From: Maribacter sp.
GTDB taxonomy: Bacteria > Bacteroidota > Bacteroidia > Flavobacteriales > Flavobacteriaceae
Assembly: GCA_024228355.1 (NCBI GenBank)
Contig: JAAETN010000495.1
Span: 1 to 52,260, forward strand
Length of the DNA: 52,260 nt
Direction: 5' to 3'
Shown piece after piece: positions 1-15,005 of this stretch (positions within the stretch are counted from its first letter, which is position 1; each line of letters opens with the position of its first letter). Below the pieces are notes generated by a model. The model was not told the origin of the DNA. It saw only the letters and a list, made by a program, of their open reading frames with translations, and did no database searches. Position numbers and translations under genes: made by a program.

Positions 1-269
1 CGAAGGCCCTGCTTTAGACTCACCCGATTGAAGGTCAGTCCCAATTCCTTCCAGGACTGTCCGCGTAGTTTTAGACTCGTCCAAACCATTACTAACATAA
101 GGAGATTTGCAACCCAAACAATACTATAGCTACGAATAAGGTCTTCACCTACCCAGGAACTTGTAAATTTTATAAACAAGAAGGCTGGAAGAAATACCAA
201 CAACATTTCGCCAAGGCAGTATATCCAATTCTGCTGGTCGTCTTGTACATTTTCCATTTTAGTTTCCAT
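1..269 (-). CDS. CPBP-type intramembrane protease, N-terminal part (cut by window edge)
   Basis: The minus strand is open from an ATG at 267-269 to the window edge, giving about 89 residues; the C-terminal part is outside. Two hydrophobic stretches are visible, followed by the segment WKELGLTF, which is typical of the N-terminal part of CPBP (CAAX-protease/bacteriocin-processing) membrane proteins. A second ATG twelve bases downstream is an alternative start. The conserved glutamates and histidines of the family would lie beyond the edge, so activity cannot be judged. It lies downstream of, and in the same direction as, the AraC-type regulator, 114 bases away. The family call rests on this short segment only. 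Confidence 0.55.
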   Translation of the reverse strand, partial: METKMENVQDDQQNWIYCLGEMLLVFLPAFLFIKFTSSWVGEDLIRSYSIVWVANLLMLVMVWTSLKLRGQSWKELGLTFNRVSLKQGL

Positions 270-382
270 ATTATTTGAATTTTAAGTTAGATTCAAAACT
301 ATTGTAGAGAGAAATGGAAATCGACCGTCTTCAGGAAAACGGACGAATTAAATGCGACTATTCCCGAAAAATTTAAGTTTAA

Positions 383-1513
383 CTAGGTTTGGGACAGACT
401 TTTTTTAAATTCGGATGGAGTTTGACCGGTCAGTTTTTTGAATTCCTTATTGAAGGAAGATTTGGAATTAAATCCGGCCTGAAACATGGCTTCAATTATG
501 GTCATTTTCTTATCAGGGCCTTGTAGAATTGTTTTTACCTCTTCACAACGAAAGGTATTTATGAAATCATAGAAGTTTTGATCGAATCCCTGATTTATTA
601 CCTGGGAAAGCGTTTTACCACTTACGCCTAATTCCTCGGCTAAATCTTTGCTGTTCAGATCTGGATTCAGGTATAGTTGATCTGTCAGCATCAAATTGGT
701 TAGCTGATTTTTGTAATTACTAATATCAACCGGACTAAGATTAGACATTGCATACTTTTCAGTTTCTTTTTTAGTAATACCAGAAAATATAGCAGGTTGA
801 TTTAGTGCTTTTACCAATATCAGATTTATGAAGTAGAAAGTTACAAGAAGTAATACTGTAACCGAAACATATAGAAATATCTTATTACTGAAAATAGGTG
901 TCAGGTTATGAATCATTGCAACAATAGTGATTACAGTAAAGGCCCGTAGCATAAAATTGAGCCAGTCTAGTTTAATCCCGTCTATACTGGAATACTTATC
1001 TTTTATTACTGCATGATATGTTTTGATTGTGCGCCAGGATAACCACAAATAGTATAATATATGCAAATATGTAAACAGACTAATGACATAGACCCAGGCT
1101 GGAAAATCCGCGGTGGTAATTTTTAAGGCAATTTCCGGACCAGACTCCTTGTCCAAGGAAACAATCAAAAATAGCACAAAGCATGTATATATGGCATAAG
1201 GTACTAAATGCCATGCATCTCTCTTTTTAAAGGCAAAGTCATGGAATACCACAGCACGGCAATAGAAAAACAGAATAGGGCCATACAATAAAAAAAAGGC
1301 ATCATCCAACAGGTGAACCATTGGGTTGGGAAATATGAGCCCGCTAACTCGGGCTGCAAAATCCATCAGATTAATAGCGAACAAAAAAAACAGCAAGGCC
1401 AGCAGACTATTGTTTCTTTTAATTCCTTTTTTGTGCGTAAACAAGTAGAGCGTCAAGAATAAAAATTGAAAAGCCACTAGGATAGAAAGCAATGCGCCCA
1501 GGTTGTATTTCAT
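383..1513 (-). CDS. Membrane-bound AraC-family transcriptional regulator
   Basis: The product is a 376-residue protein with about seven hydrophobic helices in the first two thirds, followed by a C-terminal AraC-type DNA-binding domain. The domain shows the first helix-turn-helix (SKDLAEELGVSGKTLSQVIN) and the AraC signature ending AGFNSKSSFNKEFKKLTGQTPSEFK. I chose the ATG at 1511-1513 because the open frame upstream of it (MMSSSFIEI...) is poorly hydrophobic and the family normally starts just before helix 1. Such membrane AraC proteins are common in Flavobacteriia; their ligands are mostly unknown. The neighbour downstream is the partial CPBP protease. Upstream begins the yifB-remnant region, so this gene may be an original flank of that hot spot. 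Confidence 0.85.
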   Translation of the reverse strand: MKYNLGALLSILVAFQFLFLTLYLFTHKKGIKRNNSLLALLFFLFAINLMDFAARVSGLIFPNPMVHLLDDAFFLLYGPILFFYCRAVVFHDFAFKKRDAWHLVPYAIYTCFVLFLIVSLDKESGPEIALKITTADFPAWVYVISLFTYLHILYYLWLSWRTIKTYHAVIKDKYSSIDGIKLDWLNFMLRAFTVITIVAMIHNLTPIFSNKIFLYVSVTVLLLVTFYFINLILVKALNQPAIFSGITKKETEKYAMSNLSPVDISNYKNQLTNLMLTDQLYLNPDLNSKDLAEELGVSGKTLSQVINQGFDQNFYDFINTFRCEEVKTILQGPDKKMTIIEAMFQAGFNSKSSFNKEFKKLTGQTPSEFKKSLSQT

Positions 1514-1585
1514 AACAATTAAATATAAGCAAATCTCTATAAAGGAAGAGGACATCAATAGTCATCGATACGTATTTACTGAAAT

Positions 1586-1735
1586 TTACCCCAACCAGCC
1601 TTCACGATCCAAACTCCGATATTGTTTAGATTCGGCAATACGATTGCCAATCAAGGACTCGGTATGTTCCAGATCAGCAATAGTCGTTTTACTTTTAATA
1701 TATGGATAGGTACGTGCAGAGAGTTTCTCCGCTAG
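1586..1735 (-). pseudogene. yifB/comM 3'-end remnant (copy B)
   Basis: The last 49 codons encode a diverged version of the C-terminus of the intact YifB at 8599-10155. Both end in QYRSLDREGWLG before the stop, and both share TIADLE and a form of LSAR-Y upstream. The frame stays open to 1783, but the residues upstream of about 1735 no longer resemble YifB. There is no ATPase part, so it cannot be functional. Its stop codon is the exact left limit of similarity. The TIR gene ends 14 bases beyond the right end of the open frame. Confidence 0.85.
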
Positions 1736-1799
1736 CACCAAGTCGCTCCTTATCCCATACAGTTGCAGGCAGACTTGCGGCATTACGCATTTCGGTCAG

Positions 1800-3149
1800 T
1801 TATCGGCTGAAGTCCCGAACCGCCCTAACTCGGAATTTTCGCTGTTCAACCGCTCTATTATAATGATATGATGCATTACCATCGCGAAATCTTAAAAGTC
1901 GTGCCTGATATTCATCGTAGGAGGTCGCACTCCAGTAAAGCTCATCGGTAAATTGACCGCTATTGGTTGCGCCCTGTCCAATAGTTTGGTGCATTGTTTT
2001 CAATTCATCTAAAGTTGGTAATCTCCATCCCTCACCCAATTGCTCATGAATTTTCATAGCGTTTTTCCATGACATCGGTCCAGCATCTCTCGGAGAAACG
2101 ATTTTACCGGTTTTACGATCGGAGCTAATTGAAAAAACAATACCACCATCATAGCTAGCACCAATACCAAGTTTTGATATAGATTCCTCCACTCCCACCG
2201 AATCAATTTCATTTTCGGATAATGCACTTGAGTCCCTTACATCAACTGGGTTCTCTTTTCGTAAAGGAGGTGTATTTTTCTCGGAATCGCTATTAAATAA
2301 TGAAAAAAACCATATTCCGACTATAGCGAATACCGCTATTAAGGACCCAACAACTACTCTTTTTTTAAGTTTTTTGTTTTTGTCCTCGTGCGTCTCTTCA
2401 TCTTTTCTGTTGGCTTCAATATGAATTTGTGGTCGATTCGCTTCTTCCTTTAGTTTGTTCTCCTCAGCTCTTCTTTTGGAGTCGACCGCTTCCCTAATTT
2501 TTTTCTCCTCCTCGACCTTTATTTGAGCTTCTGCTTCCTCTAAAATCCTATTCTCTTCCTCGGCTATGCTATCAGCTTCTCTTTCTTCGTTACTATTTAT
2601 TTCCATCCGATCCAGGCCGTCGGCATTCGCTGGCGATACTTCTATATTTTTTTCGGATTCCCCCTGATCCTTCTCATCTATTAATGACGCAATCACCGAA
2701 GCTACAGCGGCGGTAATGCTGTCCAAGACTTCATCAAGTGAAGCCCAATCCGCTATTGGTTTTTCCCGCTCCGGTAAAACCTGCAACTCCTTCAAATTGA
2801 AATTGTAGTCGTCGGATCTGAAATCAATATCCCATGGACAATTCTCAATAAGTATAGGTATAACCTTAGACTTACCTTCCTTATATCGGTCAATGACCCT
2901 TTTAAACTCTACCTGATTGATAAATTCAGAATGCATATAGGCATCACTTATCAAAAGAAGGAAGATATCGGCATCATTTAATCGGGATTCAATTTGGGGT
3001 TGCCATTGCTGCCCTGTATAAATGGGGTCATCATGCCAAATCGATACATCGTGGAGTTCTTTTAATGGTCGCAAATGACGCAATAGCCGAAGCATTATGT
3101 CATTGTCATCCGAAGTGTAAATTATAAATATATTTATATCCCGGTCCAT
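1800..3149 (-). CDS. TIR domain / coiled coil / transmembrane / DUF1566 protein
   Basis: The product is a 449-residue protein. Residues 1-155 form a TIR-like domain (FIIYTSDDN near the start, ADIFLLLISDAY around 60-71, then SEFINQVEFKRV, where E81 is the candidate catalytic glutamate of NAD-cleaving TIRs). Residues 185-262 are strongly charged and probably coiled coil. Residues 264-284 are one transmembrane helix. Residues 335-446 match the DUF1566 (Lcl C-terminal) pattern, with GWRLPTLDEL, YWSAT and the final VRAVR. The inferred topology is TIR inside and DUF1566 outside. TIR proteins of bacteria often act in anti-phage defence by degrading NAD; whether this one does is not shown. It sits alone between two yifB remnants, which argues for horizontal arrival. 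Its gene runs in the same direction as yifB. Confidence 0.8.
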   Translation of the reverse strand: MDRDINIFIIYTSDDNDIMLRLLRHLRPLKELHDVSIWHDDPIYTGQQWQPQIESRLNDADIFLLLISDAYMHSEFINQVEFKRVIDRYKEGKSKVIPILIENCPWDIDFRSDDYNFNLKELQVLPEREKPIADWASLDEVLDSITAAVASVIASLIDEKDQGESEKNIEVSPANADGLDRMEINSNEEREADSIAEEENRILEEAEAQIKVEEEKKIREAVDSKRRAEENKLKEEANRPQIHIEANRKDEETHEDKNKKLKKRVVVGSLIAVFAIVGIWFFSLFNSDSEKNTPPLRKENPVDVRDSSALSENEIDSVGVEESISKLGIGASYDGGIVFSISSDRKTGKIVSPRDAGPMSWKNAMKIHEQLGEGWRLPTLDELKTMHQTIGQGATNSGQFTDELYWSATSYDEYQARLLRFRDGNASYHYNRAVEQRKFRVRAVRDFSR

Positions 3150-3791
3150 TTCTTTAACAAATTACTAATTATCAGGACAGTCTAAAGTAGAGAATAATAT
3201 CATTAATGGGGATATTATGATCAAAATATTTCCAGTGCCTTGAAGAAGATTAGCCTGCTGCTCATGGCTTATATGGTGTCAGCAGAAAGATGCTCGCGCT
3301 AGCAGGGGCTTCAACTACCCCAACCACCCTTCCCGATCGAGAGAACGGTACTGTATCGCTTCCCCAATATGATTGCCATTTACTTCCTAAGAAATTTCGA
3401 GATCGGCGATGGTACGAGCAACTTTTAAAATACGGTCATAGGCCAGGGCAGATTGGTTTAGTCACTTCATGATGTTTTTAAGCTTCGCTTTGGAAGAATC
3501 ATCCAATTTGACAGATTATCAAATACTATATCATGACCAAGATCATTGACCATTTGGGGTAAAGCATCTAACTTGTACTTGAACTCAAATTCTATAGTAA
3601 CTAGTAACGAAATCAAGAAACTGCCTTATAGAATCTCAACTACACTAGTAGTATTGTCCACCCCGCATAAATCAATGAATGTTGAGTGCTCCTGTTTGCA
3701 GTGTTAAGAAACACTGGGAGTAATTTCAGGCTCACTAAGATAGGATAGGTACGCAACAAGAAAATAATTTATTAACCTAAAAAATATAATC
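3150..3791. other. Intergenic stretch holding a yifB remnant
   Basis: This 640-base stretch lies between the divergent TIR gene and the cyclase operon. The only recognisable content is the yifB remnant at 3315-3506. The short open frame on the plus strand at 3290-3472 is antisense to that remnant and is not a credible gene. From 3507 to 3791 I see no gene, and no promoter that I would name. Confidence 0.5.
3315..3506 (-). pseudogene. yifB/comM 3'-end remnant (copy C), two in-frame stops
   Basis: Reading the minus strand from about 3506 to the TAG at 3315-3317 gives 63 codons that follow the YifB C-terminus. The order is an LDDSSKAKLKNIMK-like start (the intact gene has MDEASKALLKNAME), then AYDRILKVARTIADLE, then HIGEAIQYRSLDREGWLG. 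Two in-frame stops interrupt it, a TGA after NIMK and a TAG after ADLEIS. It is therefore a decayed fragment. As in the other copies, similarity stops exactly at the stop codon on the left side. Confidence 0.88.
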
Positions 3792-4301
3792 ATGGGACTT
3801 GACCCAACAATTAACTTTACAGAAGAGAATCTAAATTTTGACAAGGAAATTCTAAAAGCTGAATTAAAGGAAATTCTAAAAGCTGAAGATCAAATTATTT
3901 CATTGATAGTAAAAGCCGAAGGTCTTTATAATTTGGAAAAAGAATACACACAGACCCAGGTTGACAAGTACAGTATACTTGAAGATAAACAACATAGTTC
4001 ACAACTTGCTCCTTTAAAAAATTTCATATCAGAAGTTTTCATTGGTCATAAGGTAAGTTGGAATGGACAATCAATTGACGACGGATATACTGTTTTAATA
4101 GAAAGTATTACATATAAACATGATTTTTTGGAAGAATCTCAACCCATTAGTGGAATTGAAGGAATGGTCACAACCAAGATAAAGAATGACAAAGAATTGG
4201 AGGACAAGATTTTTGAATACAAAATCAATTTCAGTATCTATAAAGAAGGCGCAGATCCTAAATATTTTATGATTGATCCAAAATTATGTGGTAATACCTA
4301 A
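3792..4301 (+). CDS. Protein of unknown function, partner of the cyclase gene
   Basis: The product is a 169-residue protein with no signal peptide or membrane helix and no family that I recognise. It is acidic and lysine-rich at the N-terminus, where an eight-residue unit (KEILKAEL, then KEILKAED) is repeated in tandem by a 24-base duplication. The C-terminal two thirds (about 70-169) looks like a small alternating beta-strand domain. The stop is only five bases before the TTG start of the adenylyl cyclase gene, so the two are almost certainly cotranscribed and may work together. The start ATG follows an AT-rich stretch without a clear Shine-Dalgarno sequence, as is normal in Bacteroidota. 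Confidence 0.75.
   Translation: MGLDPTINFTEENLNFDKEILKAELKEILKAEDQIISLIVKAEGLYNLEKEYTQTQVDKYSILEDKQHSSQLAPLKNFISEVFIGHKVSWNGQSIDDGYTVLIESITYKHDFLEESQPISGIEGMVTTKIKNDKELEDKIFEYKINFSIYKEGADPKYFMIDPKLCGNT
3843..3888 (+). repeat. In-frame 24-base tandem duplication
   Basis: Two copies of a unit beginning aaggaaattctaaaagctga lie side by side near the start of the unknown gene, duplicating eight codons. The copies are identical over about 21 bases, so the duplication is probably recent. Confidence 0.7.
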
Positions 4302-4306
4302 TTAAA

Positions 4307-6118
4307 TTGAAATCTTTCAACTATTTGGTAAAGGTATGTGTTGCCGTATGCTATTTGCATTTACCATGTGCAAGCAGTACTGCGCAGGACCAGAGAATTG
4401 CCGATAGTCTGGTGAAAATTTATCAGGAAGATACCTTGGAAGGTTTCAAAAAATTGGAATTACTGAGAAATTTGGCCTTTAACCAGGCGAATGATCTCGA
4501 ATTATCCTTAAAATATGCAGAAGAACTTATAGCCCTGTCCAAGTTAGAAGACAATGCTTTATACTTGTACAGGGGGTATCTTCAAAAAGGAAATAGCACA
4601 AGAAGACTTGGAGATTTGGAAATTGCGCTGGATGCTTTCTTCAAGAGTCTTGAGGCAGCTATTAAGGTAGAACATATTGCAGGTGAGGGAATGGCTTATA
4701 CCTCAATTGCTGATGTTTATTCTCAAATGGGAAACTCTAATAATGCCGAGGTGTATTATAACAAAGCCATTCCACTGTTAAGAAAGATCAATGATTCTGT
4801 ATCGCTAGCTATCGCCCTATTGAATGCAGGTGATCAATATTTGAAGGATAAGAAATATGAGTCTGCCATGGCCTATTTTGAGGAGGCCGGGCGTATCTCT
4901 GAAAATATAAATTTCCTAAGTGGCACTGTCTATTACCTGGGCAATATGGGAATGGTATATGCCGAGCAAGGAAAGGATGACTTGGCGAAGGCAAATATAA
5001 ATGCCGCTATTACGATCCTTGAGGAACTGCAGGATTATTCCCCAATTGTGGAATACCTTACTACAATGTCCTATATCTATTCAAAACAACAGAATTTTAC
5101 TACGGCATTCAGCTATTCGCAAAGAAGCCTGGAACTTGCTACTGCCCACAATTTAAAAGAGTCCATTGGTGCTGCAAATCTTCAGTTATCAGAACTGTAT
5201 GAACATACCGGAAACCCAAGTGAGGCTTTTAAATATTTCAAGAATCACATTGCATACCGGGACAGCGTCAAGAACATCGCAAGAGTCCAGCAAATGGCCG
5301 ATCTGCGTACAGATTTTGAGGTTTCTCAAAAACAGATTGAATTAGATCTGCTCAGCCAAAAAAAGGCGAATCAGCAGACCATTTTTATTGCCATGATTAT
5401 AATTGCAGGTCTTACAATCATTTTATTACTCACCTTGTATTGGTATTATAGATCTATTAAAAGGGAGAAAAAAATCTCTGAGAATCTCCTCCTGAATATC
5501 CTACCCTCTGAAACTGCTGAGGAATTAAAAAAAAGTGGTAAAGTACAAGCTGAAAAGTTTGATTCTGTGACCGTATTGTTTACCGATTTTAGGGGATTTA
5601 CACGGCTAGCAGGAAATTTATCTCCCGAAAAGCTGGTAGAAAGAGTTGATTATTATTTTTCAAAGTTTGACGAAATTATGGAAAAACACCACCTTGAAAA
5701 AATCAAAACCATAGGCGATTCGTATATGTGCGTTGGGGGTTTACACTCCCACAAAGCAGATCACCCTCTTAAAATGATGTTGGCTGCTTTTGAAATTTCC
5801 GCATTTGTTGGTGATTGCAAAAAACGAGGTTCAAAAAATGAAATTTGTTTTGATATGCGTATAGGAATTAATACGGGTCCGGTGGTTGCCGGAGTAGTAG
5901 GTAGGAAGAAATTTGCTTATGACATATGGGGAGATACTGTGAATATAGCCTCACGTATGCAAACCAATTCAGAGGCTGGAAAAATTAATGTATCGGAATA
6001 CACCTATGAGTTGATTAAAGATTCCTTTGTTTGTGAATATAGAGGTGAATTTGAAGTTAAAAATAAAGGGTTGATGAAAATGTACTATGTAAATAATACA
6101 AAGATCAAAACCATGTAA
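4307..6118 (+). CDS. TPR-transmembrane class III adenylyl cyclase
   Basis: The product is a 603-residue protein. Residues 1-26 are a signal peptide and about 45-320 are TPR-type helical repeats. Residues 358-381 are a transmembrane helix and 410-600 a class III nucleotide cyclase domain. The metal-binding aspartates D427 (LFTDFRGFT) and D471 (TIGDSYM) are present. The substrate-choosing residues are K467 (KIKTIGD) and D539 (AYDIWGD), the pair found in adenylyl rather than guanylyl cyclases. N546 and R550 (NIASRM) complete the site. So it should make cAMP in the cytoplasm in response to something bound by the periplasmic TPR part. The start is TTG at 4307, since no ATG lies in frame before the TPR region and the TTG start gives a good signal peptide. 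It is cotranscribed with the unknown gene upstream. Confidence 0.87.
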   Translation: MKSFNYLVKVCVAVCYLHLPCASSTAQDQRIADSLVKIYQEDTLEGFKKLELLRNLAFNQANDLELSLKYAEELIALSKLEDNALYLYRGYLQKGNSTRRLGDLEIALDAFFKSLEAAIKVEHIAGEGMAYTSIADVYSQMGNSNNAEVYYNKAIPLLRKINDSVSLAIALLNAGDQYLKDKKYESAMAYFEEAGRISENINFLSGTVYYLGNMGMVYAEQGKDDLAKANINAAITILEELQDYSPIVEYLTTMSYIYSKQQNFTTAFSYSQRSLELATAHNLKESIGAANLQLSELYEHTGNPSEAFKYFKNHIAYRDSVKNIARVQQMADLRTDFEVSQKQIELDLLSQKKANQQTIFIAMIIIAGLTIILLLTLYWYYRSIKREKKISENLLLNILPSETAEELKKSGKVQAEKFDSVTVLFTDFRGFTRLAGNLSPEKLVERVDYYFSKFDEIMEKHHLEKIKTIGDSYMCVGGLHSHKADHPLKMMLAAFEISAFVGDCKKRGSKNEICFDMRIGINTGPVVAGVVGRKKFAYDIWGDTVNIASRMQTNSEAGKINVSEYTYELIKDSFVCEYRGEFEVKNKGLMKMYYVNNTKIKTM

Positions 6119-6884
6119 ATTTGTTGTTTGTACAATGTAATCTTAAGTTTGAGCCATAATTATACCTACCCCAACCATCCTTCTCTATCTAGACTTCTAT
6201 ATTGGATGGCTTCTGCAATACACCCGAATGAGTAAGTATTTGTTTTGCGAATTGACTGATGCAAAGCTTACGAAGAGGGCCGCATCTGTGATTCTATCTA
6301 ATGTGGTGGTTTGTAAATTATGTGATTTTGGTCAAGCATTACAATGGGTTAAGGGATAAAATCTTAGTCTCTTAAAACCTGAATTTCTGGGACAAATAAA
6401 AAAGACCACTAATGGGACTCTTCAAGAAAAAGTAGCGTAATTTGTAATAGAAGTCCTATCAACCGGCCGTTTTACGGGACAGCCAATTCTTAATTCGATT
6501 GTTTTAAACTCAAGTTGAATAATCATTATAAAGTATATAATGAGAGTATGTTTGTTATCTGCTATATTTGGAGTATTACGAAATGGAGATATACGTGCCG
6601 GTACGCATATCCATACGTTTAATGTAGCAAAGAAGTACTAATAGTAAGCATTGACCAAATAATTTTGGATATGAGAACAAACCCAACAATACGTGGACGA
6701 GGTACGTTCTGTTAGCTCATAAAATGCAGATTAAGAGGCTTTTAAGTCTAGAGGCAAGGGGTGGAAAATATTTTTGACTGGAGTTGAACCAAATTGGCCA
6801 CGAAAAAATAGCTTTTGTCTTAATGCCGGCGCTAAAACCGGCTCAAAAAAAATCAATTTGGAATTTTAAATCTAATACAGAACT
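6119..6884. other. Intergenic stretch holding a yifB remnant
   Basis: This stretch of about 770 bases lies between the cyclase and the GH43 gene. The yifB remnant occupies 6166-6218. Near 6822-6842 there is a short GC-rich hairpin (GCCGG paired with CCGGC) upstream of the GH43 start. I recognise no other gene fragment on either strand. Confidence 0.5.
6166..6218 (-). pseudogene. yifB/comM 3'-end remnant (copy D), last 17 codons
   Basis: The minus strand encodes IAEAIQYRSLDREGWLG followed by TAG, identical in protein to the end of the intact YifB. Within the Q-Y-R-S-L-D-R codons it differs from the resident gene at seven bases, all of them synonymous. The fragment therefore comes from another yifB allele and is not a recent copy of the resident one. 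Similarity ends abruptly on the right at about 6218 and exactly at the stop codon on the left. Confidence 0.83.
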
Positions 6885-8393
6885 ATGAAAAAACTATTCA
6901 TAACCTTAGTAGTTCTCCCATTATGTATGCTGCAGGTAATTCAAGCTCAAGAGGTAGCAAAGGATTATCCAATAAAAGTGTTAACGTTTGGGAATTGGGC
7001 AGATCCTACAATAGTTAAATATGAAGATACTTATTATATGACATCTAATAATGACAATCATATCCCTTCTGCTATGCTTTTAAAGTCTAAAGACCTTTTT
7101 GATTGGGAACCAATAACATATACAAATCCCAATAGAGGTCAAGGTCCTGCTACAGATATAGCTAAATATGGAAACAAATTATACATATATGGAGGTGGGG
7201 GAAAAGATGTTTGGGTTCAGTATGCAGAATATCCATTTGAATCATGGTCAGAAAGAATAAATATGGATCCAATTGAACCACATGGGATTGATGCTGGACA
7301 TATTACAGATGAACGAGGTAACAGATATTTATATACGAATATGGGTAAAATGTTAAAAATATCAAAAGATGGACTTAAGGCTGAAACTGCTCCCCAGCTA
7401 AAATATGATGGCTGGGATATTCCAGATTCAATTGACATAGAATGTGTTTGTTTAGAAAGTCCAAAACTATTTAAGAAAGATGAGTATTATTTTTTGGTAA
7501 GTGCTGCTGGTGGAACTGTAGGGCCAGCTACAAGTCATATGGCAATTGTCGCCCGCTCAAAAACTGTTGAAGGCCCATGGGAAAACTCTCCGTATAATCC
7601 GATGATCTGGACAGAAAGTATGAATGAAAAATGGTGGTCTAAAGGACATGCGACCTTAATTGAAGGCCCAGATGGAAATTGGGCAGCTATCTATCATGGA
7701 TATCTTCAGCATCAAAGATCGCTTGGAAGGGCAACTCTTATGTCTCCAATTAATTGGACTGATGATGGCTGGCCAGTTGTTGCAGATGAGTGGCCTGAAG
7801 GATGGGATAAGGAGCCGGTTTTCAATTGGGAGTTGAGTGATTCCTTTGATAACCAAGAATTGGGAATTCAATGGCAAGCTTGGAATGACTTAAAGCCAGA
7901 AAGATTCTCTTTGTCTGATGGTGCACTTAAATTTAAAGGAATTAATACAGTAGATCCTGGATTATCTTTCCCAATCACAGTTAACCCTTTGCATTCAGGA
8001 TATGAAGTAGAAACTGAAGTTGAAATATCAAATGATGGTACAGCTGGTTTAATATTATTTTATAACAGCAATGCTTATGTCGGAATTGGATTATCTGGTG
8101 ATGGAAAAATTCAAAAATATTTAAAACTATCTGAAAGAATGGAAACTCCAAAGCCAAGGGACATTGTTGAGGTTGGAGTAGATAAGATTAAATTAAAAAT
8201 TAATAATGATAACCAAACAGTCTCCTACTATTATAAAATTGAGGGGACTGATTGGATAAAACTAGAAGCTTCTGAAGATATTTCCGGTTTTCAGGACAAT
8301 ATTTATGGAGGTTTTATTTCAGTAAGACCCGGATTATTTGTGCTAGGTAATTCAAAAGCTATATTTAATGAATTCAATTACTCAAAACTCTGA
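6885..8393 (+). CDS. Secreted GH43 glycoside hydrolase
   Basis: The product is a 502-residue protein with a signal peptide (about 1-21). It carries an N-terminal five-bladed GH43 propeller to about residue 305 and a C-terminal beta-sandwich (about 310-500), as in the GH43 enzymes that carry a second domain. The three expected catalytic residues are visible: D40 (NWADPTIVK, general base), D136 (GIDAGH, pKa modulator) and E191 (ESPKLFK, general acid). The likely substrates are beta-xylosides or alpha-arabinosides of plant or algal glycans; the exact specificity cannot be read. It lies between yifB remnants, with no TonB/SusD pair beside it, so it is not part of a canonical polysaccharide locus here. 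Confidence 0.88.
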   Translation: MKKLFITLVVLPLCMLQVIQAQEVAKDYPIKVLTFGNWADPTIVKYEDTYYMTSNNDNHIPSAMLLKSKDLFDWEPITYTNPNRGQGPATDIAKYGNKLYIYGGGGKDVWVQYAEYPFESWSERINMDPIEPHGIDAGHITDERGNRYLYTNMGKMLKISKDGLKAETAPQLKYDGWDIPDSIDIECVCLESPKLFKKDEYYFLVSAAGGTVGPATSHMAIVARSKTVEGPWENSPYNPMIWTESMNEKWWSKGHATLIEGPDGNWAAIYHGYLQHQRSLGRATLMSPINWTDDGWPVVADEWPEGWDKEPVFNWELSDSFDNQELGIQWQAWNDLKPERFSLSDGALKFKGINTVDPGLSFPITVNPLHSGYEVETEVEISNDGTAGLILFYNSNAYVGIGLSGDGKIQKYLKLSERMETPKPRDIVEVGVDKIKLKINNDNQTVSYYYKIEGTDWIKLEASEDISGFQDNIYGGFISVRPGLFVLGNSKAIFNEFNYSKL

Positions 8394-8494
8394 AAATAAT
8401 AGAAACATATTACTACAAAACGAGAACTTCACGTTTTCAAGAAAAACATACTATTCAAAAATTAGTGTATTAAACTTTAAAAAGAAAAAATAAG

Positions 8495-8598
8495 ATGAAT
8501 TTTTTTTATTATTTATAAGTATGATTGTTTTATCCGGAATTAATTCAGCCCAGACTAATAAATGGACTGAGGAGCATTATTTACTCCAGGATGACTAA
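8495..8598 (+). pseudogene. Decapitated secreted-protein gene: signal peptide plus a few residues
   Basis: Reading the frame of 8521 gives FFLLFISMIVLSGINSAQ followed by TNKWTEEHYLLQDD and a stop, which is a typical signal peptide and the beginning of a mature protein. The only good ATG (8495-8497) is out of frame with this by a slip in a run of eight T residues at 8500-8507. The reading ends where the yifB stop codon begins, so the rest of the gene was probably lost at that junction. The original family cannot be named from so few residues. Confidence 0.5.
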
Positions 8599-10155
8599 TT
8601 ACCCCAACCATCCTTCTCGATCCAAACTACGGTACTGGATGGCTTCTGCAATATGTTGGCCCAGAACCGCTTCGGCAGATTCCAGGTCGGCTATTGTTCT
8701 AGCAACCTTTAAAATACGGTCATAGGCACGTGCTGAAAGATTCAAACGTTCCATGGCATTTTTTAAAAGTGCTTTTGAAGCTTCATCCATCTTACAATGC
8801 TCGCGAATCTGTTTAGTGTTCATTTGGGCATTGTAATGTACAGCTTGCCTGCCACTTGGTAGGTTCTCCAATTCCTTAAATCGTTCTGTCTGAAGTTCCC
8901 GAGCTGCAGTGACCCTTTTCCTAATTTCAACACTGCCCTCCCCTTTTCGGTCTTCAGAGAGTTTCTCAAAGGGTACAGGAGTGACTTCGATATGAATATC
9001 GATCCGGTCCAATAAAGGTCCTGAGACCTTTCCTAAATAGCGTTGCATCTCGGTAGGAGTTGAAGTAACTGGCGCATCGGGATCGTTAAAATAACCACCA
9101 GGACTGGGGTTCATACTGGCTACCAACATAAAACTACTGGGATAGGTAACCGTAAACCGGGCTCTTGAAATCGTAACCTCCCGATCTTCCAAAGGTTGGC
9201 GCATCACTTCAAGTACCCCTCTTTTGAATTCTGGCAACTCATCCAAAAACAAAACTCCGTTGTGGGAAAGTGAGATTTCACCGGGCTGTGGATAAGCCCC
9301 GCCACCGACGAGGGCCACATCACTAATTGTATGATGGGGGCTTCTAAAAGGCCTTTGACTCATAAGCCCCATATTCTTGATCTTCCCTACAACGCTATGG
9401 ATTTTAGTTGTTTCCAAAGCTTCTTGAAGGGTCATTGGGGGCAATATCGATGGCAGGCGTTTGGCGAGCATGGTTTTACCTGCCCCTGGAGGGCCTATCA
9501 AAATAATGTTATGGCCTCCTGCAGCTGCAATTTCCATGCAACGCTTTATGCTTTCCTGTCCTTTTACATCCGAGAAATCAAACTCAGGAAAGTCAAGGTT
9601 CTTATAAAACTCTGCCCTAGTATCAACAATGGTCTGTTTCAGGGGTCTACCGGTATCAAAGAAGTCGATTACCTCTATGATATTCTCTATACCATATACC
9701 CTTAAATCGGAAACAATAGCTGCTTCCTTGGCATTATCCTTGGGTAAAATAAATCCTGTAAATCCTTCTTCCCTAGCCTTTATGGCGATTGGTAGGGCAC
9801 CCTTAATGGGTTGCAAACTCCCGTCCAATGAAAGTTCGCCCATAATAATGTACTGTTCTAAGTTATCAGATTTTATTTGACCTGACGCCGTCAATATTCC
9901 CAAGGCCAAGGTTAAATCATAGGCAGACCCTTCTTTGCGTAAATCTGCCGGTGCCATATTGATAGTGATTTTCTTACCTGGAATTTTATAGCCGTTGTTC
10001 AATAAGGCCGCGGCAATCCGGTAATTACTTTCCTTTATTGCATTATCAGGGAGACCAACCAAATGGTATCCCACTCCCTTGTCCACATTCACCTCTATTG
10101 TAATGGTAGTAGCCTCTACGCCAAATACCGCGCTGCCATAAACTTTGGTAAGCAT
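8599..10155 (-). CDS. yifB: YifB/ComM family AAA ATPase (Mg-chelatase-like), intact copy
   Basis: The product is a 518-residue protein of the ComM/YifB family, a hexameric helicase of the Mg-chelatase type that in naturally competent bacteria extends branch migration during uptake of foreign DNA. An N-terminal ChlI-like domain comes first (MLTKVYGSAVFGVEA...). The Walker A motif is at residues 221-228 (GPPGAGKT), Walker B is GVLFLDELPEF near 300, and the C-terminal domain ends EAIQYRSLDREGWLG. I chose the ATG at 10153-10155 because family members start at this MLxKxxGSA; the 15 upstream residues of the open frame are not family-like. An odd seven-residue insert (LPSGRQA) lies near the C-terminus. 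This is the only full copy among several remnants in the region. Confidence 0.92.
   Translation of the reverse strand: MLTKVYGSAVFGVEATTITIEVNVDKGVGYHLVGLPDNAIKESNYRIAAALLNNGYKIPGKKITINMAPADLRKEGSAYDLTLALGILTASGQIKSDNLEQYIIMGELSLDGSLQPIKGALPIAIKAREEGFTGFILPKDNAKEAAIVSDLRVYGIENIIEVIDFFDTGRPLKQTIVDTRAEFYKNLDFPEFDFSDVKGQESIKRCMEIAAAGGHNIILIGPPGAGKTMLAKRLPSILPPMTLQEALETTKIHSVVGKIKNMGLMSQRPFRSPHHTISDVALVGGGAYPQPGEISLSHNGVLFLDELPEFKRGVLEVMRQPLEDREVTISRARFTVTYPSSFMLVASMNPSPGGYFNDPDAPVTSTPTEMQRYLGKVSGPLLDRIDIHIEVTPVPFEKLSEDRKGEGSVEIRKRVTAARELQTERFKELENLPSGRQAVHYNAQMNTKQIREHCKMDEASKALLKNAMERLNLSARAYDRILKVARTIADLESAEAVLGQHIAEAIQYRSLDREGWLG
8842..8862 (-). repeat. Small palindromic insert inside yifB (encodes LPSGRQA)
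   Basis: Twenty-one bases encode LPSGRQA between FKELEN and VHYNAQMNT, where YifB proteins normally run on without a break. The DNA is imperfectly self-complementary (CCTACC ... GGCAGG). Short protein-coding palindromes with this peptide occur, as I recall, in other Bacteroidota and resemble a mobile mini-repeat. The call is from the sequence pattern only. Confidence 0.45.
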
Positions 10156-10440
10156 ATAATCCGGGTTTCTAGGGCTTAAATATAGGTTTTGACCCTGCAC
10201 AAATACTGCAGTGAAAGGTTTATAGGAAAATCATTTTTAAGATTTCATGAAATAGTTATTATGAGTTTGGTAGCATTTGGGAATCAGGTACAATTTAGTA
10301 AATTGCATTCTCTTAAAAATAGGGAGTTAATAAGTGCTGTATACCATTGGTAGTATAAGTGAATTGTTTACCTAATAGTTGATAAATATTGAAAACACGG
10401 CCATATTTTTGGTGATTTTTTAACTTGAACTAAAGGTGAC

Positions 10441-10989
10441 ATGATATTAAAATTTTCAATATTCTCTGTTATTTTTCTCCTGTTTGCTTATTTCGTTTTT
10501 CGTAAAGCTATCAAGAGGGATTACAAGTCCCTTATGAAACTCTCACCTATTTCTTATATGCTTGAAATCATGGTATTTGGCATTCACGCAAATTCTATTT
10601 ATTTAATCCTGCCCACACCATGGCCCAACATACCACAGCTGCCGGATAGTCAAGTTGTAAGGATTGTGTCAGCAATTATATTCACGATTGGGGTTGTCAT
10701 CCTTTTTGTTGCGTGGTTTGGTCTTGGCACCAAATCCAGCCTAGGAATGGACAAAAACAAGCTAAAAACAAACGGAGTATATAAATTTTCCAGAAATCCA
10801 CAATTGGTTGGATATGGAATAATGTTGGTTTCTTTTACAATTTTGTTTTTCTCATGGCTAACAATTATTTGGATTATACTTTACTTAATAGCATCATATT
10901 TTATGGTTAAATCGGAAGAAGAGTTCTTGGAGATAAAATACGGACAGGAATATAAAGAGTATTGTATTTCTGTGCCCAGAATTTTGTGA
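10441..10989 (+). CDS. Small membrane methyltransferase of the ICMT/PEMT type
   Basis: The product is a 182-residue protein with about five hydrophobic helices. The C-terminal half carries the NGVYKFSRNPQLVGY motif and the final EEEFLEIKYGQEYKEY, both characteristic of isoprenylcysteine/phospholipid methyltransferase-like proteins, which use S-adenosylmethionine at the membrane. The acceptor cannot be predicted in a bacterium. The start is the ATG at 10441, directly before a hydrophobic helix. It lies about 285 bases upstream of the yifB start and divergent from it. Shortly after its stop a CGCACAACAATG motif resembles the cassette borders described for the next genes, but I found no matching left border. 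Confidence 0.8.
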   Translation: MILKFSIFSVIFLLFAYFVFRKAIKRDYKSLMKLSPISYMLEIMVFGIHANSIYLILPTPWPNIPQLPDSQVVRIVSAIIFTIGVVILFVAWFGLGTKSSLGMDKNKLKTNGVYKFSRNPQLVGYGIMLVSFTILFFSWLTIIWIILYLIASYFMVKSEEEFLEIKYGQEYKEYCISVPRIL

Positions 10990-11330
10990 TGAATAACGAA
11001 AGAATAGAGAACACGAACGCACAACAATGAATCTGAAAAATATGCGGTTTAGTAGTAAACTCAACATTCGTAACATACTTCAACTTGAGTTCGACTTGAT
11101 AAGAAAGTACAACAAAATCTATCATCAAAGTCAATCTTACATTGTTCAACATCACTAAAACAGGGATAATTCTACTAAAAGTAGAGGTCGTATTTTAAAT
11201 GTACTGTACTTATAATATTTGTTGTAGTATATTAGTTTATATAAGTGGGATATCATCAATAACTATATCCCATTGTTAGCTGTTACTCAATAATTAAATA
11301 TCAAGCTAAAAGATTATAAAATATTTATAA
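10990..11330. other. Intergenic stretch with attC-like half-motifs
   Basis: These 341 bases hold no gene. They hold CGCACAACAATG at 11018-11029, ACATTGTTCAAC at 11139-11150, and a GGGATAT/ATATCCC hairpin (11247-11271) running directly into CATTGTTAGC (11271-11280). These motifs look like pieces of the palindromic borders described at 12597-12668. Confidence 0.45.
11247..11284 (+). repeat. attC-like left border of the ceramidase cassette
   Basis: A hairpin (GGGATAT paired with ATATCCC) is followed by CATTGTTAGCTG. The TTAGC at 11276-11280 is complementary to GCTAA at 12597-12601 on the far side of the ceramidase-like gene. In integron cassettes the left junction is complementary to the right arm of the same cassette in this way. 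Only five bases match, so alone it is weak. Confidence 0.4.
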
Positions 11331-12584
11331 ATGAAGCAATTAACATTACTACTTATCAGTCTATTATTCTTTGGTTGTAATCAAAAAAAAGATGAATATG
11401 GAGAATTAAGGGTGGGCGTTTCTTACCAATCGATCACACCTAAAATAGGTGCGTTTATTGCCGGTGACAAAAATAATCGTCGTTTTACAACTGTACATGA
11501 CTCTTTATATGTTAAAGCAATGGTTCTGTCTGATTCAAAGAATACAATGGCAATTGTTGTATACGACTGTATTGGGATGCTTCATCCCACACTAGTTAGA
11601 ATTAGAAAAGAAGTTTCATCTAGGATTTCAACTTCTGAATTTGATGCATCTCACATTGTTATGGCTTCCACTCATACCCATTCTGGCCCTGATGTTGTTG
11701 GTATTTGGGGCCCCGACCAGATGACATCGGGCGTTGACCCAGAATATATGGAAAAAATTGTTCAGAAATCGGCAGACGCAATAGATGCGGCATGGAAAAA
11801 CAGACAAGATGCAACAGCTGTATACGCAGAAACACAATTTGGAGAAGATTGGGTGTTTAATATTTCTGATTCTTTAAGTTTAGATCGCTCCCTAACAATC
11901 CTCCAATTTATGGATTATAAGGGAGAATCAATCGCAACCTTGAATAATTTTGCTTGTCACCCAACCATAATGGATGGTACCTCAAGTGCAGTTTCGGCGG
12001 ACTATGTATCCTCAATGTATACTGTTCTCGACAAAAAGATCGGGGGAGTAAATTTCTTTCTTCAAGGAGCTATTGGAGGCTGGGTACAACCCGAATACGA
12101 AACTAAATCCTTTGAAAATGTAGATAAAAGAGGACAAGAGTTAGGAAGAAAAATCACAACTGCTTTAAAAGATCCAATCAAATTGAACTCAGAATCTATT
12201 CAATTCAAAAGTAGAATATTCAAATTGCCCGTATCGAATGTCAATTTTCAGCAACTGGCTAAAATGGGAGTGATAAATCGATCGATAACAGATAGTGTAA
12301 GTACGGAAGTTGCCTGGTTTTCAATCGGTAATGCACAGTTTGTCACTCACCCTGGAGAAACTACTCCCACTCATTCATTGGAATCAAAAAGACTAATGAC
12401 CAAACAAGGTCCGAAGTTTGTGATCGGTTTGGGGATGGATGCTTTAGGGTATATTCTAACACCGGAATTTTACGAAGAAAATCCCAAAGTGAAACATTCA
12501 GAATACTTAACAGGGATGTCGATTGATGAAAAAGCTGGGGCAATTTTAATAGATAATTTAAACTCTTTGGCAAACAAAAAGTGA
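11331..12584 (+). CDS. Neutral ceramidase-like lipoprotein
   Basis: The product is a 417-residue lipoprotein: the signal peptide ends in the lipobox LLFFGC, with the lipidated Cys at about residue 16. The remainder resembles the N-terminal catalytic domain of neutral/alkaline ceramidases. The zinc-site motif is STHTHSGPD (H115, H117) and a further conserved segment is NNFACHPTIMDG. The full-length ceramidases are larger because they carry a C-terminal immunoglobulin-like domain, which is absent, so this is the short Bacteroidota version often found next to sugar enzymes. The true substrate may be an amide other than ceramide. It stands alone between palindromic borders and reads in the same direction as the next gene. 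Confidence 0.8.
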   Translation: MKQLTLLLISLLFFGCNQKKDEYGELRVGVSYQSITPKIGAFIAGDKNNRRFTTVHDSLYVKAMVLSDSKNTMAIVVYDCIGMLHPTLVRIRKEVSSRISTSEFDASHIVMASTHTHSGPDVVGIWGPDQMTSGVDPEYMEKIVQKSADAIDAAWKNRQDATAVYAETQFGEDWVFNISDSLSLDRSLTILQFMDYKGESIATLNNFACHPTIMDGTSSAVSADYVSSMYTVLDKKIGGVNFFLQGAIGGWVQPEYETKSFENVDKRGQELGRKITTALKDPIKLNSESIQFKSRIFKLPVSNVNFQQLAKMGVINRSITDSVSTEVAWFSIGNAQFVTHPGETTPTHSLESKRLMTKQGPKFVIGLGMDALGYILTPEFYEENPKVKHSEYLTGMSIDEKAGAILIDNLNSLANKK

Positions 12585-12596
12585 TAATACGAAACC

Positions 12597-12668
12597 GCTA
12601 ACAATGTATATGAAATCATAGCCGCCTAACGGCAGGCTACGCTTCATATACTCACCATTGTGCATAAT
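12597..12668 (+). repeat. attC-like palindromic cassette border
   Basis: The arms pair as follows: ACAATG (12601-12606) with CATTGT (12656-12661), TATATGAA (12607-12614) with TTCATATA (12643-12650), AGCC (12620-12623) with GGCT (12635-12638), and GCC with GGC around a four-base loop. There are unpaired bases on one arm only. A GCTAAC outer end, stepwise arms with one-sided bulges and about 60-70 bases of length are the plan of an integron attC site. The right end TTGTGCA (12658-12664) is the exact complement of TGCACAA at 13045-13051 beyond the next gene. It has no T-run, so a plain terminator is less likely. Confidence 0.6.
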
Positions 12669-13031
12669 ATGAAAAAAGTGACGATTCTAATTTTACTTTT
12701 GACTTTGATTTCCTGTAATCATGGCAAGAACTGAATTACAACAGAAATCAAAAATTCTTCTGACAAAACTATTAGGAATGTGACTTTCTCTTCTGATGTA
12801 AACACAAATCTGGAATTTGATAAAATTAAACCGAACGAAACCGTTAAGAAATTTCTCGATATGACAAATAATCAAAATGGAGATGGCGCTTATTTATTGA
12901 GATTTGAACGTGAAAACGGTAAAACGGAACAAACTGTTGGTGGATATTACACAAATGGCATGTCGCTAGATCGAAAGGTCTGGTGTGAAATTAAAAATGA
13001 CACAGTAATAATGAAGTTTAGTGGATTTTAA
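12669..13031 (+). pseudogene. Small lipoprotein gene broken by one in-frame stop
   Basis: The ATG at 12669 begins a clean lipoprotein signal peptide (MKKVTILILLLTLISC) but meets TGA at 12732 after 21 codons. The same frame then continues without another stop to 13031 with protein-like sequence (ITTEIKNSSDKTIRNVTFSS ... TVIMKFSGF). Restoring the one codon would give about 120 residues. The ORF that could start at a GTG (12780) lacks the signal peptide and is better seen as the tail of this gene. The family is not recognised; the beta-rich tail is typical of small Bacteroidota lipoproteins. It lies between two attC-like borders. Confidence 0.7.
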
Positions 13032-13044
13032 ATTTAAAATAATC

Positions 13045-13073
13045 TGCACAACAATGGCTATAATCCATTATTA
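13045..13073 (+). repeat. Truncated attC-like border
   Basis: TGCACAACAATGGCTATAAT is the left arm of a border like that at 12597-12668, and TGCACAA is the exact complement of TTGTGCA on the left of the broken lipoprotein gene. The right arm is missing, because the yifB 5' remnant begins within a few bases. The cassette run therefore ends at, or was cut by, the yifB fragment. Confidence 0.5.
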
Positions 13074-13074
13074 C

Positions 13075-13182
13075 CTATCTCCTACTCCATTCTATGCCAA
13101 GTAAGACCAATCTCTAATACAACGGTTATCGTAGAGGCCTCTACCCCAAAAGCAACACTTCCAAAAACCTTTGTAAGCACAT
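13075..13182 (-). pseudogene. yifB/comM 5'-end remnant (copy E)
   Basis: From the ATG at 13180-13182 the minus strand, after a two-base insertion, reads LTKVFGSVAFGVEASTITVV. The intact YifB has LTKVYGSAVFGVEATTITIE at the same place. Similarity fades after about 35 codons and a stop follows. The fragment has the same orientation as the intact gene and lies 3 kb upstream of its start, so it cannot be a promoter-proximal part of that gene. It is the head of another yifB allele. Confidence 0.8.
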
Positions 13183-13214
13183 ATTATTAAACTAATAAAT
13201 CAAAATATGTATTT

Positions 13215-15005
13215 CTACTCAACTAAAAATGTCGCACGACTAGAAATTGGTTTGCCATAGGTAGTAAATCCTTCTAATACAATTTCATATTCACCGGGAA
13301 CGTCAGAAGTGTAAAACTCAAAAGATACCTCACTTTTTTCAATGGAGAATTGTGGTTCCCAAAACAATTGATACCTAAAATCAGGTATTCGATTGTATTT
13401 TGACACTACCTCTTGGTCATATTGCTGCCTATAATAATTCTTGTTAGCAGCTGGAAATGATAAGGGAATACTCGCGATTTTACGCTCTGGAACTGATTCT
13501 AAAAAATTACCCTCAATTGTTTTTATAACAACCATGCCATGATATTCCTTCGACCCCAATACCAATGGATCTCTTAATACGCTCAGTTTTTCAATATTAT
13601 TTGCATTATAGTCCAATAGTTCATCATGATTTGAAATAAAAACGCCGTCTACCAAAACCAATGGTGGGTCTGCTGCATATTCATTGTCATAAGATTCCAA
13701 ATCCTCTCTCACCCAAAAAGTATATTTCCCATTATCAAGTTTCTTAATCCATACGTTTTCAACGATTTCAACCAAGGTCTCACGGAGTGTATTAAATCTT
13801 GTATACTGGTCAAGAATAAATACTTCGGGAGTGCCTCCATCAAATGGGTCTTTTTTATCGATAGAAATTATTGAATCAGGTTTTACGCCGTAAAAAGCAT
13901 TTTCAATTTGATTATGGATGCTTCTTTGAAGTATATGATTTTGAATTTCTTGGCTAATGGATAATCCTGAAAATTTAATTTCATCATAATCAATTGATGC
14001 TGATTGCGAAAACTGAATAGTATATGCTTCTTGATTATCGTCAAGGACTTGAGCAACTATATTAGGTGAGTCATACTCTTTTTGAATATACGTGTAGAAG
14101 TTTCCATCATTATCCGTGATTGCAGATTTTAATTGAAAATTTTCTCCGGGAATTGAAATAATTACTGTTTTACCTGCAGCTGCCGATTCATCTTTTCTGG
14201 TTCTAACATGTCCAAAAAACAATTCTCCCCGTTGTTCTGGTAAAAAAATTGAATCATTTACTTTGTTGGAAATATTTTTGGGCATATTGAAGAATGAACT
14301 TGCAAAGGTTTCTGCATTCAGTGGGTCATTATTAATTAATGCTTCCTTTAACCTTACACTTATAGAATAATTACCAAAACCCAAGGGTCCTTTAAAATTT
14401 TTGGAAGTAAGGGAAACTTGGTCCCTTTGGTTGTACCTTTTTTTATCAGTAATAAGTAAAATGGTCCCATCCTTTTTTATTTGGTTTTTAATTGAACCAT
14501 CTTCTTTACTTTCTAGTTTGTTAATTGAAATTGTTTGTTCATTATCCTCAAGTATATTTTCTTGATCAATTCTATATGGATTTACAATAATTATATCATC
14601 TTGAAACAAGTGATTTACTCCTTCGTTTTTCATCCAGTGGGTATAGCCAATTAATTTGTAATTACCTGATGGTATTGATACAGGAATGAAAAAATCACCT
14701 TGACCCCTACCTTTCCTTAATTGAACTTTTTGCTTAAAAACAGTACTTAAATCCTCCCCGACCAACTCAATATAGGCCATTCTGCTTATGTTACTCAATT
14801 TATTGGTTGCAGCGTTAAAACAATAAAGACTGTAATACAGATATTCCCCTGGGAACAGTACCCCTGTATTGTAATGTACATATACCTTTTCCAAAGGTAG
14901 TTGTTGTAATTGCACTAGTTCTTCTTGGCTTTTTATGACGTACTGTGCGCTAAGTAATCCGCATTGAACAAACAGCAATCCTAAAAGTATTAATCTCTTT
15001 ATCAT
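13215..15005 (-). CDS. Secreted MG2/carboxypeptidase-regulatory-like protein, third gene of the TonB receptor set
   Basis: The product is a 596-residue protein with a signal peptide (about 1-20). The mature part begins LPLEKVYVHYNTGVLFPGEY, the pattern of the macroglobulin-like MG2 domains found in Bacteroidota surface proteins. Further beta-sandwich segments follow, and a region with a TonB-plug-like VDGVFISNHDELLDYNANNI (about 450-480). There is no barrel. It lies ten bases after the DUF4249 gene, so it is the last gene of an operon with the TonB receptor. The role is unknown; secretion and the neighbours suggest it works at the cell surface with the receptor. Confidence 0.75.
   Translation of the reverse strand: MIKRLILLGLLFVQCGLLSAQYVIKSQEELVQLQQLPLEKVYVHYNTGVLFPGEYLYYSLYCFNAATNKLSNISRMAYIELVGEDLSTVFKQKVQLRKGRGQGDFFIPVSIPSGNYKLIGYTHWMKNEGVNHLFQDDIIIVNPYRIDQENILEDNEQTISINKLESKEDGSIKNQIKKDGTILLITDKKRYNQRDQVSLTSKNFKGPLGFGNYSISVRLKEALINNDPLNAETFASSFFNMPKNISNKVNDSIFLPEQRGELFFGHVRTRKDESAAAGKTVIISIPGENFQLKSAITDNDGNFYTYIQKEYDSPNIVAQVLDDNQEAYTIQFSQSASIDYDEIKFSGLSISQEIQNHILQRSIHNQIENAFYGVKPDSIISIDKKDPFDGGTPEVFILDQYTRFNTLRETLVEIVENVWIKKLDNGKYTFWVREDLESYDNEYAADPPLVLVDGVFISNHDELLDYNANNIEKLSVLRDPLVLGSKEYHGMVVIKTIEGNFLESVPERKIASIPLSFPAANKNYYRQQYDQEVVSKYNRIPDFRYQLFWEPQFSIEKSEVSFEFYTSDVPGEYEIVLEGFTTYGKPISSRATFLVE

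Follow-up and report, generated by a model that had tools for sequence, protein, structure and literature searches.

Three decayed 3' ends of yifB lie downstream of an intact yifB gene in a contig of Maribacter sp. (JAAETN010000495.1, 52,260 nucleotides), which is called the window here. In our reading these fragments are yifB ends that mobile elements displaced when they inserted into the gene one after another, the gene being mended afterwards, and we give this origin a probability of roughly 0.55. The best documented target site of such elements in the Flavobacteriaceae is at codons 276-281 of yifB, and the second is at codons 294-298. The window array is probably a set of relics of this known kind of targeting, in an arrangement that we found undescribed.

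Three yifB ends beside an intact gene

A DNA profile of yifB 3' ends gave exactly four matches in positions 1-14000 of the window, all on the minus strand. One was part of the resident yifB gene (9465-8600), and the others were remnant A (1727-1587, E 4.7e-24), remnant B (3512-3316, E 2.7e-41) and remnant C (6220-6167, E 6e-12); the feature coordinates are given in Table 1. The first-pass annotation, made from the bare sequence, had reported three remnants in the orientation of the intact gene and had proposed that they were foreign alleles and not local duplicates; the first point was confirmed and the second is supported. Remnant C and the resident share a 17-residue peptide but differ at seven synonymous positions, as it had stated, and one more difference was found in the stop codon. 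Identity to the own resident was 73% for remnant A, 70% for remnant B and 85% for remnant C, and when 61 resident yifB genes were ranked by identity to each remnant, the own resident was 7th, 20th and 3rd, respectively. So the window remnants are not fresh local copies. The window's own genome, which is G000 among the Flavobacteriaceae genomes compared (G-numbers), has an additional yifB remnant on contig C469 (E 7.7e-14).

The stop codon terminates all four yifB copies in the window, and the next 27 bases were dissimilar among the four by eye. The first-pass annotation had taken this edge as the point of insertion. The edge is real in every copy, but we rejected it as an insertion mark, because non-coding DNA diverges freely and similarity in any diverged coding fragment therefore stops there.

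Two smaller observations concern the gene itself. At about 8842-8863 the resident has 21 extra in-frame bases (about seven residues, LPSGRQA-like), which are absent from the other residents in the profile. On the gene's other side and on the same strand, positions 13094-13180 resemble yifB codons 1-31 (51% identity, E 2e-4), possibly a 5' fragment.

Extra yifB ends in other Flavobacteriaceae

Of the 40 genomes in a first set, which included the window's own, 7 showed multiple yifB-end matches. Among 397 Flavobacteriaceae genomes a yifB-end match was present in 350, and two or more were present in 39 (own included). In a few of these the second match was due to a contig break or a weak homologue (G060, G119), was located on a different contig (G187) or was far away (G252). 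Thirty-four fetched stretches contained an intact gene together with at least one more piece, and 47 of their 48 extra pieces were downstream of the intact yifB and on the same strand.

Comparison of flanks showed what lies between the gene and the remnant. The order in G024 is yifB, a gene for a 136-aa protein, and the remnant. The DNA after this remnant matched the DNA after yifB of G269 (88.8% over 490 bp), and the DNA after the G024 resident had no match, which indicated that DNA has been inserted in G024 between yifB and the gene's former neighbour. G126 and G326, which belong to one genus, had the post-remnant flank in common (78.6% over 416 bp) and not the DNA after the resident, which means the same flank with a different insert. 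For G169 and G353 the DNA after the resident was also common (93.8%). The first-pass annotation had proposed repeated site-specific insertion at the yifB end. Repeated insertion into or beside yifB is supported by the extra ends in 39 of 397 genomes, by the G024 and G269 comparison, and by the recurring junctions and integrase elements described below, but the stop-codon end as the target is not.

An alternative is that the yifB end was duplicated locally and then decayed. It fits the remnants of G035 and G024, which are 99-100% and 87-97% identical to their own residents, look more like local duplication or conversion, and count against our reading of the arrays. For the window it is largely disfavoured and we regard it as very improbable, since the remnants there are no closer to their own resident than to other genera, the inserts carry unrelated passengers, and the non-yifB junctions recur.

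Some old ends had internal deletions: codons 275-299 adjoin codons 501-518 in G402, and codons 278-362 adjoin codons 491-518 in G044. Truncated yifB was also sought in genomes without a normal 3' end, and the hits were mostly contig ends. Two side observations were made in these comparisons. G252 (L069) differs from G406 (L092) by an insert of about 1.09 kb at most 25 bp from the yifB stop, with no recognised remnant. In L039 (contig C8 of G003, 9860 bases) the same 141 bases, part of yifB, stand at both ends; either identical yifB copies misled the assembly or the molecule is circular.

Serine-integrase elements that split yifB

The first-pass annotation had suggested looking for an integrase near yifB ends of related genomes, and large serine integrases were found there, splitting yifB near codons 276-288 and 294-298. 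In G328, yifB can be read to codon 280 and then runs straight into a 566-aa serine integrase. The same layout was seen in G318, G180, G115 and G074, and in G088 the integrase sits inside the element. Both halves of yifB could be read in these six genomes, whose elements were 10.5 to 25.8 kb long and whose left junctions leave yifB just after codons 276-280. Three new elements, with only the left half read, came from a search with the G328 integrase (G213, G111, G064), so that nine genomes have an integrase element near codons 276-288. Two more have one at codons 294-298 (G044, 11.3 kb; G408, 28.4 kb). All eight integrases scanned had Resolvase, Recombinase and zinc-ribbon domains, with the zinc ribbon of G044 and, barely, of G408 being about at or below the cut-off.

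The G328 integrase query had matches in 16 of 299 genomes. The eight best (E < 1e-69) were all in yifB elements, and seven of these eight were directly after codon 280-288. The G044 integrase query found its own copy and five weak matches, in a genome set that excluded G408. In an integrase tree of 20 rows (19 different) the yifB users needed 2 label changes compared with 6.9 in shuffles; half of the inner branches of this tree are open, several end branches are long and the rows were chosen by likeness to yifB users, so the only conclusion drawn is that the integrases of the two sites belong to separate lineages. The integrase elements of relatives and the shared edge in mid-gene indicate that a recombinase exists in the family and that its site is mid-gene, not at the stop codon. 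The first-pass statement that no recombinase is present holds for the window stretch, where none was seen; the yifB elements of relatives have one.

The codon-276 junction in relics

Relic pieces that begin at codons 272-278 were found at 12 loci (G214, G220, G263, G154, G273, G328, G402, G003 twice, G401, G011 and G044), and in 8 of the 12 an intact yifB was on the same contig. This count includes G328, although its piece is the right end of the live element; it omits the G088 row, which belongs to the right-hand part of a split yifB, and another G328 row, which is the same place. By eye, a form of RACCNCCACATTR stood directly before codon 276 in 10 of the 12. The right end of the live G180 element, CATACCACCACATTATATACTATCACAGATG, has the same form as the relic half-sites, and so do the right ends of the G328, G074 and G088 elements. 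Beside the half-site, DUF6090-type genes are found in the live element of G328 as well as in two relics, those of G011 and of G003 contig C64.

A strict half-site pattern with up to 3 mismatches was found in 4 of 294 genomes and had no control match. Besides one place in the window's own genome, these were the relic of G214 and two live elements (G180 and G088), so the half-site is recognisable but not tightly kept. The copy in the own genome (contig C477:21708-21740, L161) has 3 mismatches and about 30 yifB-like bases, and its similarity to yifB alone is weak (E 0.054).

Proposed origin of the array

An element with a large serine integrase would recombine into yifB at codons 276-281, or in other cases at codons 294-298, and split the gene. 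The right end of the element (attR) would thereby be fused to the 3' part of yifB. At a later time the gene would be whole again, the integrase end of the element would be lost and no left scar would be left, while the right-end passengers, the attR half-site and the displaced 3' part would persist downstream of the intact gene. Mending would probably proceed by homologous recombination with incoming yifB DNA and would be favoured if the cell needs yifB. Repetition and decay could then give an array like that of the window, where the displaced 3' part is present downstream and in the same orientation in three copies. The window copies may well have come from such insertions, and the half-site and integrase would act as their family implies. 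That copies of yifB are exchanged is suggested by the near-identical copies of G035 and by the mosaic of the G401 remnant and its resident, which are 93-98% identical near codon 276, down to 78% at the end.

Several points weigh against this origin, besides the near-identical copies of G035 and G024. The half-site is loosely conserved: G220 and G273 have another sequence before the same codon, the right ends of G115 and G318 fit it less well, and part of it appears to resemble the yifB bases that it replaces. The codon-276 half-site junction was at none of the three window remnants, many remnants begin at codons other than the recurring ones, and the one extra piece that was not downstream (G256, codons 252-289) lies upstream of yifB. 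Integrases of the G328 or G044 type had 0 matches in the window's own genome. Moreover, yifB in the relic arrays is intact, with no scar on the left and no integrase, a state that integrase action alone does not explain. Finally, no enzyme was found for the codon-502 junction of the short window copy, described below. Because the own genome has no such integrase, this junction has no known enzyme and the junctions of remnants A and B are unreadable, the window array is assigned by its likeness to better preserved arrays.

Homologous recombination alone could also move passengers that are framed by yifB 3' ends. A fragment made of a passenger and an end would recombine with the recipient yifB and give an intact gene, the passenger and a second end, with no recombinase involved after the first capture. 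This fits the motif scan, in which no recombinase was found in arrays with an intact gene, as well as the G401 mosaic, the near-identical copies of G035 and G024, and the different inserts at the same place within one genus (G126, G326). We consider it unlikely, however, as it would not predict that non-yifB junctions recur at codons 276 and 502 across genera, nor the live integrase elements at codon 276.

ComM-type proteins act in natural transformation, and the anchor gene may for this reason help its own passengers spread. In a combination of both processes, yifB would serve as a cassette anchor: passengers framed by yifB 3' ends would first be captured by integrases at no fewer than two or three target positions and then spread between species by homologous recombination through yifB, with the gene always intact. 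We hold this to be doubtful.

The codon-502 junction

The sequence TTACACATTCGGGTG, in close forms, stands before codon 502 at ten loci: in the window, twice each in G003 and G008, and once in G011, G128, G256, G062 and G328. Remnant C is the only window copy with this type of motif before the last 17 codons, with one mismatch to the pattern, and remnants A and B had no readable junction. The pattern was found in 5 of 299 genomes, had no control match, and was present in four named records (two Eudoraea, one Muriicola that is probably the same genome as G256, and one Pricia). The 17-codon copies share this junction, so for those copies a site near the 3' end may have been used.

Such a site, close to the first-pass proposal of a target at the gene's end, would call for a separate recombinase acting near codon 502, whose element brings a copy of the last 17 codons so that the gene stays intact. 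Besides the motif counts, imperfect 53-bp direct repeats that flank a single gene in G128 and a pair of genes in G256 are consistent with it. But no recombinase was recognised beside the ten loci by motif scan or in the open reading frames (ORFs) of L156, L158 and L159; the IS200-like transposase near the remnant in L053 and L159 is at most a candidate; and remnants A and B lack the junction. A dedicated recombinase at codon 502 is thus improbable in our view. The pile-up of short remnants near codon 502 arises partly because shorter pieces escape detection, and this counts against our reading of the arrays.

Genes for IS200-like (Y1) transposases were observed near yifB ends in L053 (3750-4352, G062), L063 (3906-4556, G326), L061 (9620-10189, G273) and L159 (5714-6205, a Pricia metagenome-assembled genome).

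Three other candidates were tried and dropped. A junction at codon 482 looked alike by eye in G003, G252, G374 and G331, but its pattern (at most 3 mismatches) was found in 0 of 294 genomes, a set with G252 in and G003, G331 and G374 out, so no conclusion was built on it. An integron-like array was rejected on a motif scan, which detected no tyrosine-integrase motif (IntI) in the loci scanned. Repeats in G003 and G011 that were considered as recombination sites are actually paralogous DUF6090-type genes, according to the Pfam match of a G008 member.

Relation to known systems

Homologues of magnesium chelatase (yifB/comM) are the target of 12.4% of predicted site-specific serine integrases, including distantly related ones, according to PMC10083194. 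The Flavobacteriaceae elements have the same enzyme class and the same target gene family, but the passage concerned speaks of integrated elements, whereas the Flavobacteriaceae loci are mostly relics beside an intact gene and without an integrase. In Wolbachia phage WO, the sr1WO group has a serine recombinase and integrates inside a magnesium chelatase gene (excerpts of PMC9203015 and PMC5447182). The gene halves flank the element there as well, but it is a prophage in another phylum, and the likeness is drawn at the level of the gene. The dusA-associated islands, in the part of PMC4482086 cited, also have a conserved target gene and island-borne sequence that may restore it, but they use tyrosine recombinases and the 5' end of another gene. 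The AbaR/Tn6022 islands in Acinetobacter comM share the gene and the repeated insertion, and differ as transposons that interrupt comM (excerpts of PMC8767349).

What is known, then, is yifB/comM as a favoured target of serine integrases; the unusual part is a restored gene alongside which scars and passengers have accumulated. The Acinetobacter islands may use the same conserved codons, with a target duplication. In the open-licence literature searched, stacked relics of yifB next to an intact copy were not described, and we found no paper on yifB with a serine integrase, on yifB as an integration site, or on large serine integrases of Flavobacteria with their attachment sites (attB). Serine integrases with yifB/comM-type targets are common. 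The stacked scars beside a whole yifB would preserve, like fossils, a history of insertion and repair in repeated rounds. With them one can test whether selection acts on cells to mend yifB, and natural attachment sites for new integrases are available in the live elements.

Passenger and flanking genes

The scars mark a hotspot for passenger genes in the Flavobacteriaceae, with a TIR protein in the window, a HigB-type toxin pair in G397, an OLD-like ATPase in G035 and arrays of DUF6090 genes; DNA methylases are present in the live elements of G328 and G074. In the window, the cargo between the ends agreed in the Pfam scan with its earlier description as a TIR protein, a cyclase pair and a GH43 protein. 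No recombinase was seen among the ORFs of the yifB stretch (ORF list, Pfam scan of 7 ORFs, motif scan of the whole window).

Table 1 Features of the window around yifB and its displaced 3' ends
Feature	Position	Strand	Evidence
Resident yifB (ComM/YifB family, Mg chelatase-like), intact, 518 aa	8599..10155	minus	Pfam PF13541, PF01078, PF13335
Resident yifB codons 272-280, unbroken; counterpart of the putative serine-integrase attachment site in split yifB of relatives	9316..9342	minus	Left and right element junctions; coordinates computed from gene start
Remnant C, final 17 codons plus stop codon, from a foreign yifB allele	6166..6219	minus	nhmmer E 6e-12; tblastn codons 502-518, 100%
Non-yifB junction of codon-502 type (TTACTCATTCGGGTG form), abutting remnant C	6220..6236	minus	Same motif at yifB ends in G003, G008, G011, G128, G256, G062, G328, as well as in named records of Eudoraea, Muriicola and Pricia
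Remnant B, yifB codons about 455-518, in-frame stop inside	3315..3512	minus	tblastn and nhmmer
Remnant A, yifB codons about 473-518	1586..1727	minus	tblastn and nhmmer
Passenger, GH43 protein	6885..8393	plus	PF04616, PF17851
Passenger, TPR protein with guanylate/adenylate cyclase domain	4307..6118	plus	PF00211
Passenger, 169-aa protein, partner of the TPR-cyclase	3792..4301	plus	No Pfam match
Passenger, TIR plus Lcl_C protein	1800..3149	minus	PF13676, PF07603
AraC-type regulator, beyond the last remnant (A)	383..1558	minus	PF12833

Homologues of the TIR protein from the same cluster adjoin yifB remnants in G128, G154 and G214. G256 and G328 have homologues of the AraC-type regulator (cluster c22) near their yifB genes, so the regulator gene is probably an older neighbour. 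The DUF6090-type genes form tandem arrays around yifB ends (L064, L051, L158, L037), with at least ten genes in G328, and the name DUF6090 was not met in the open-licence literature searched. Within the gene for the 169-aa protein, positions 3843-3887 hold an exact 21-base repeat with a spacing of 24.

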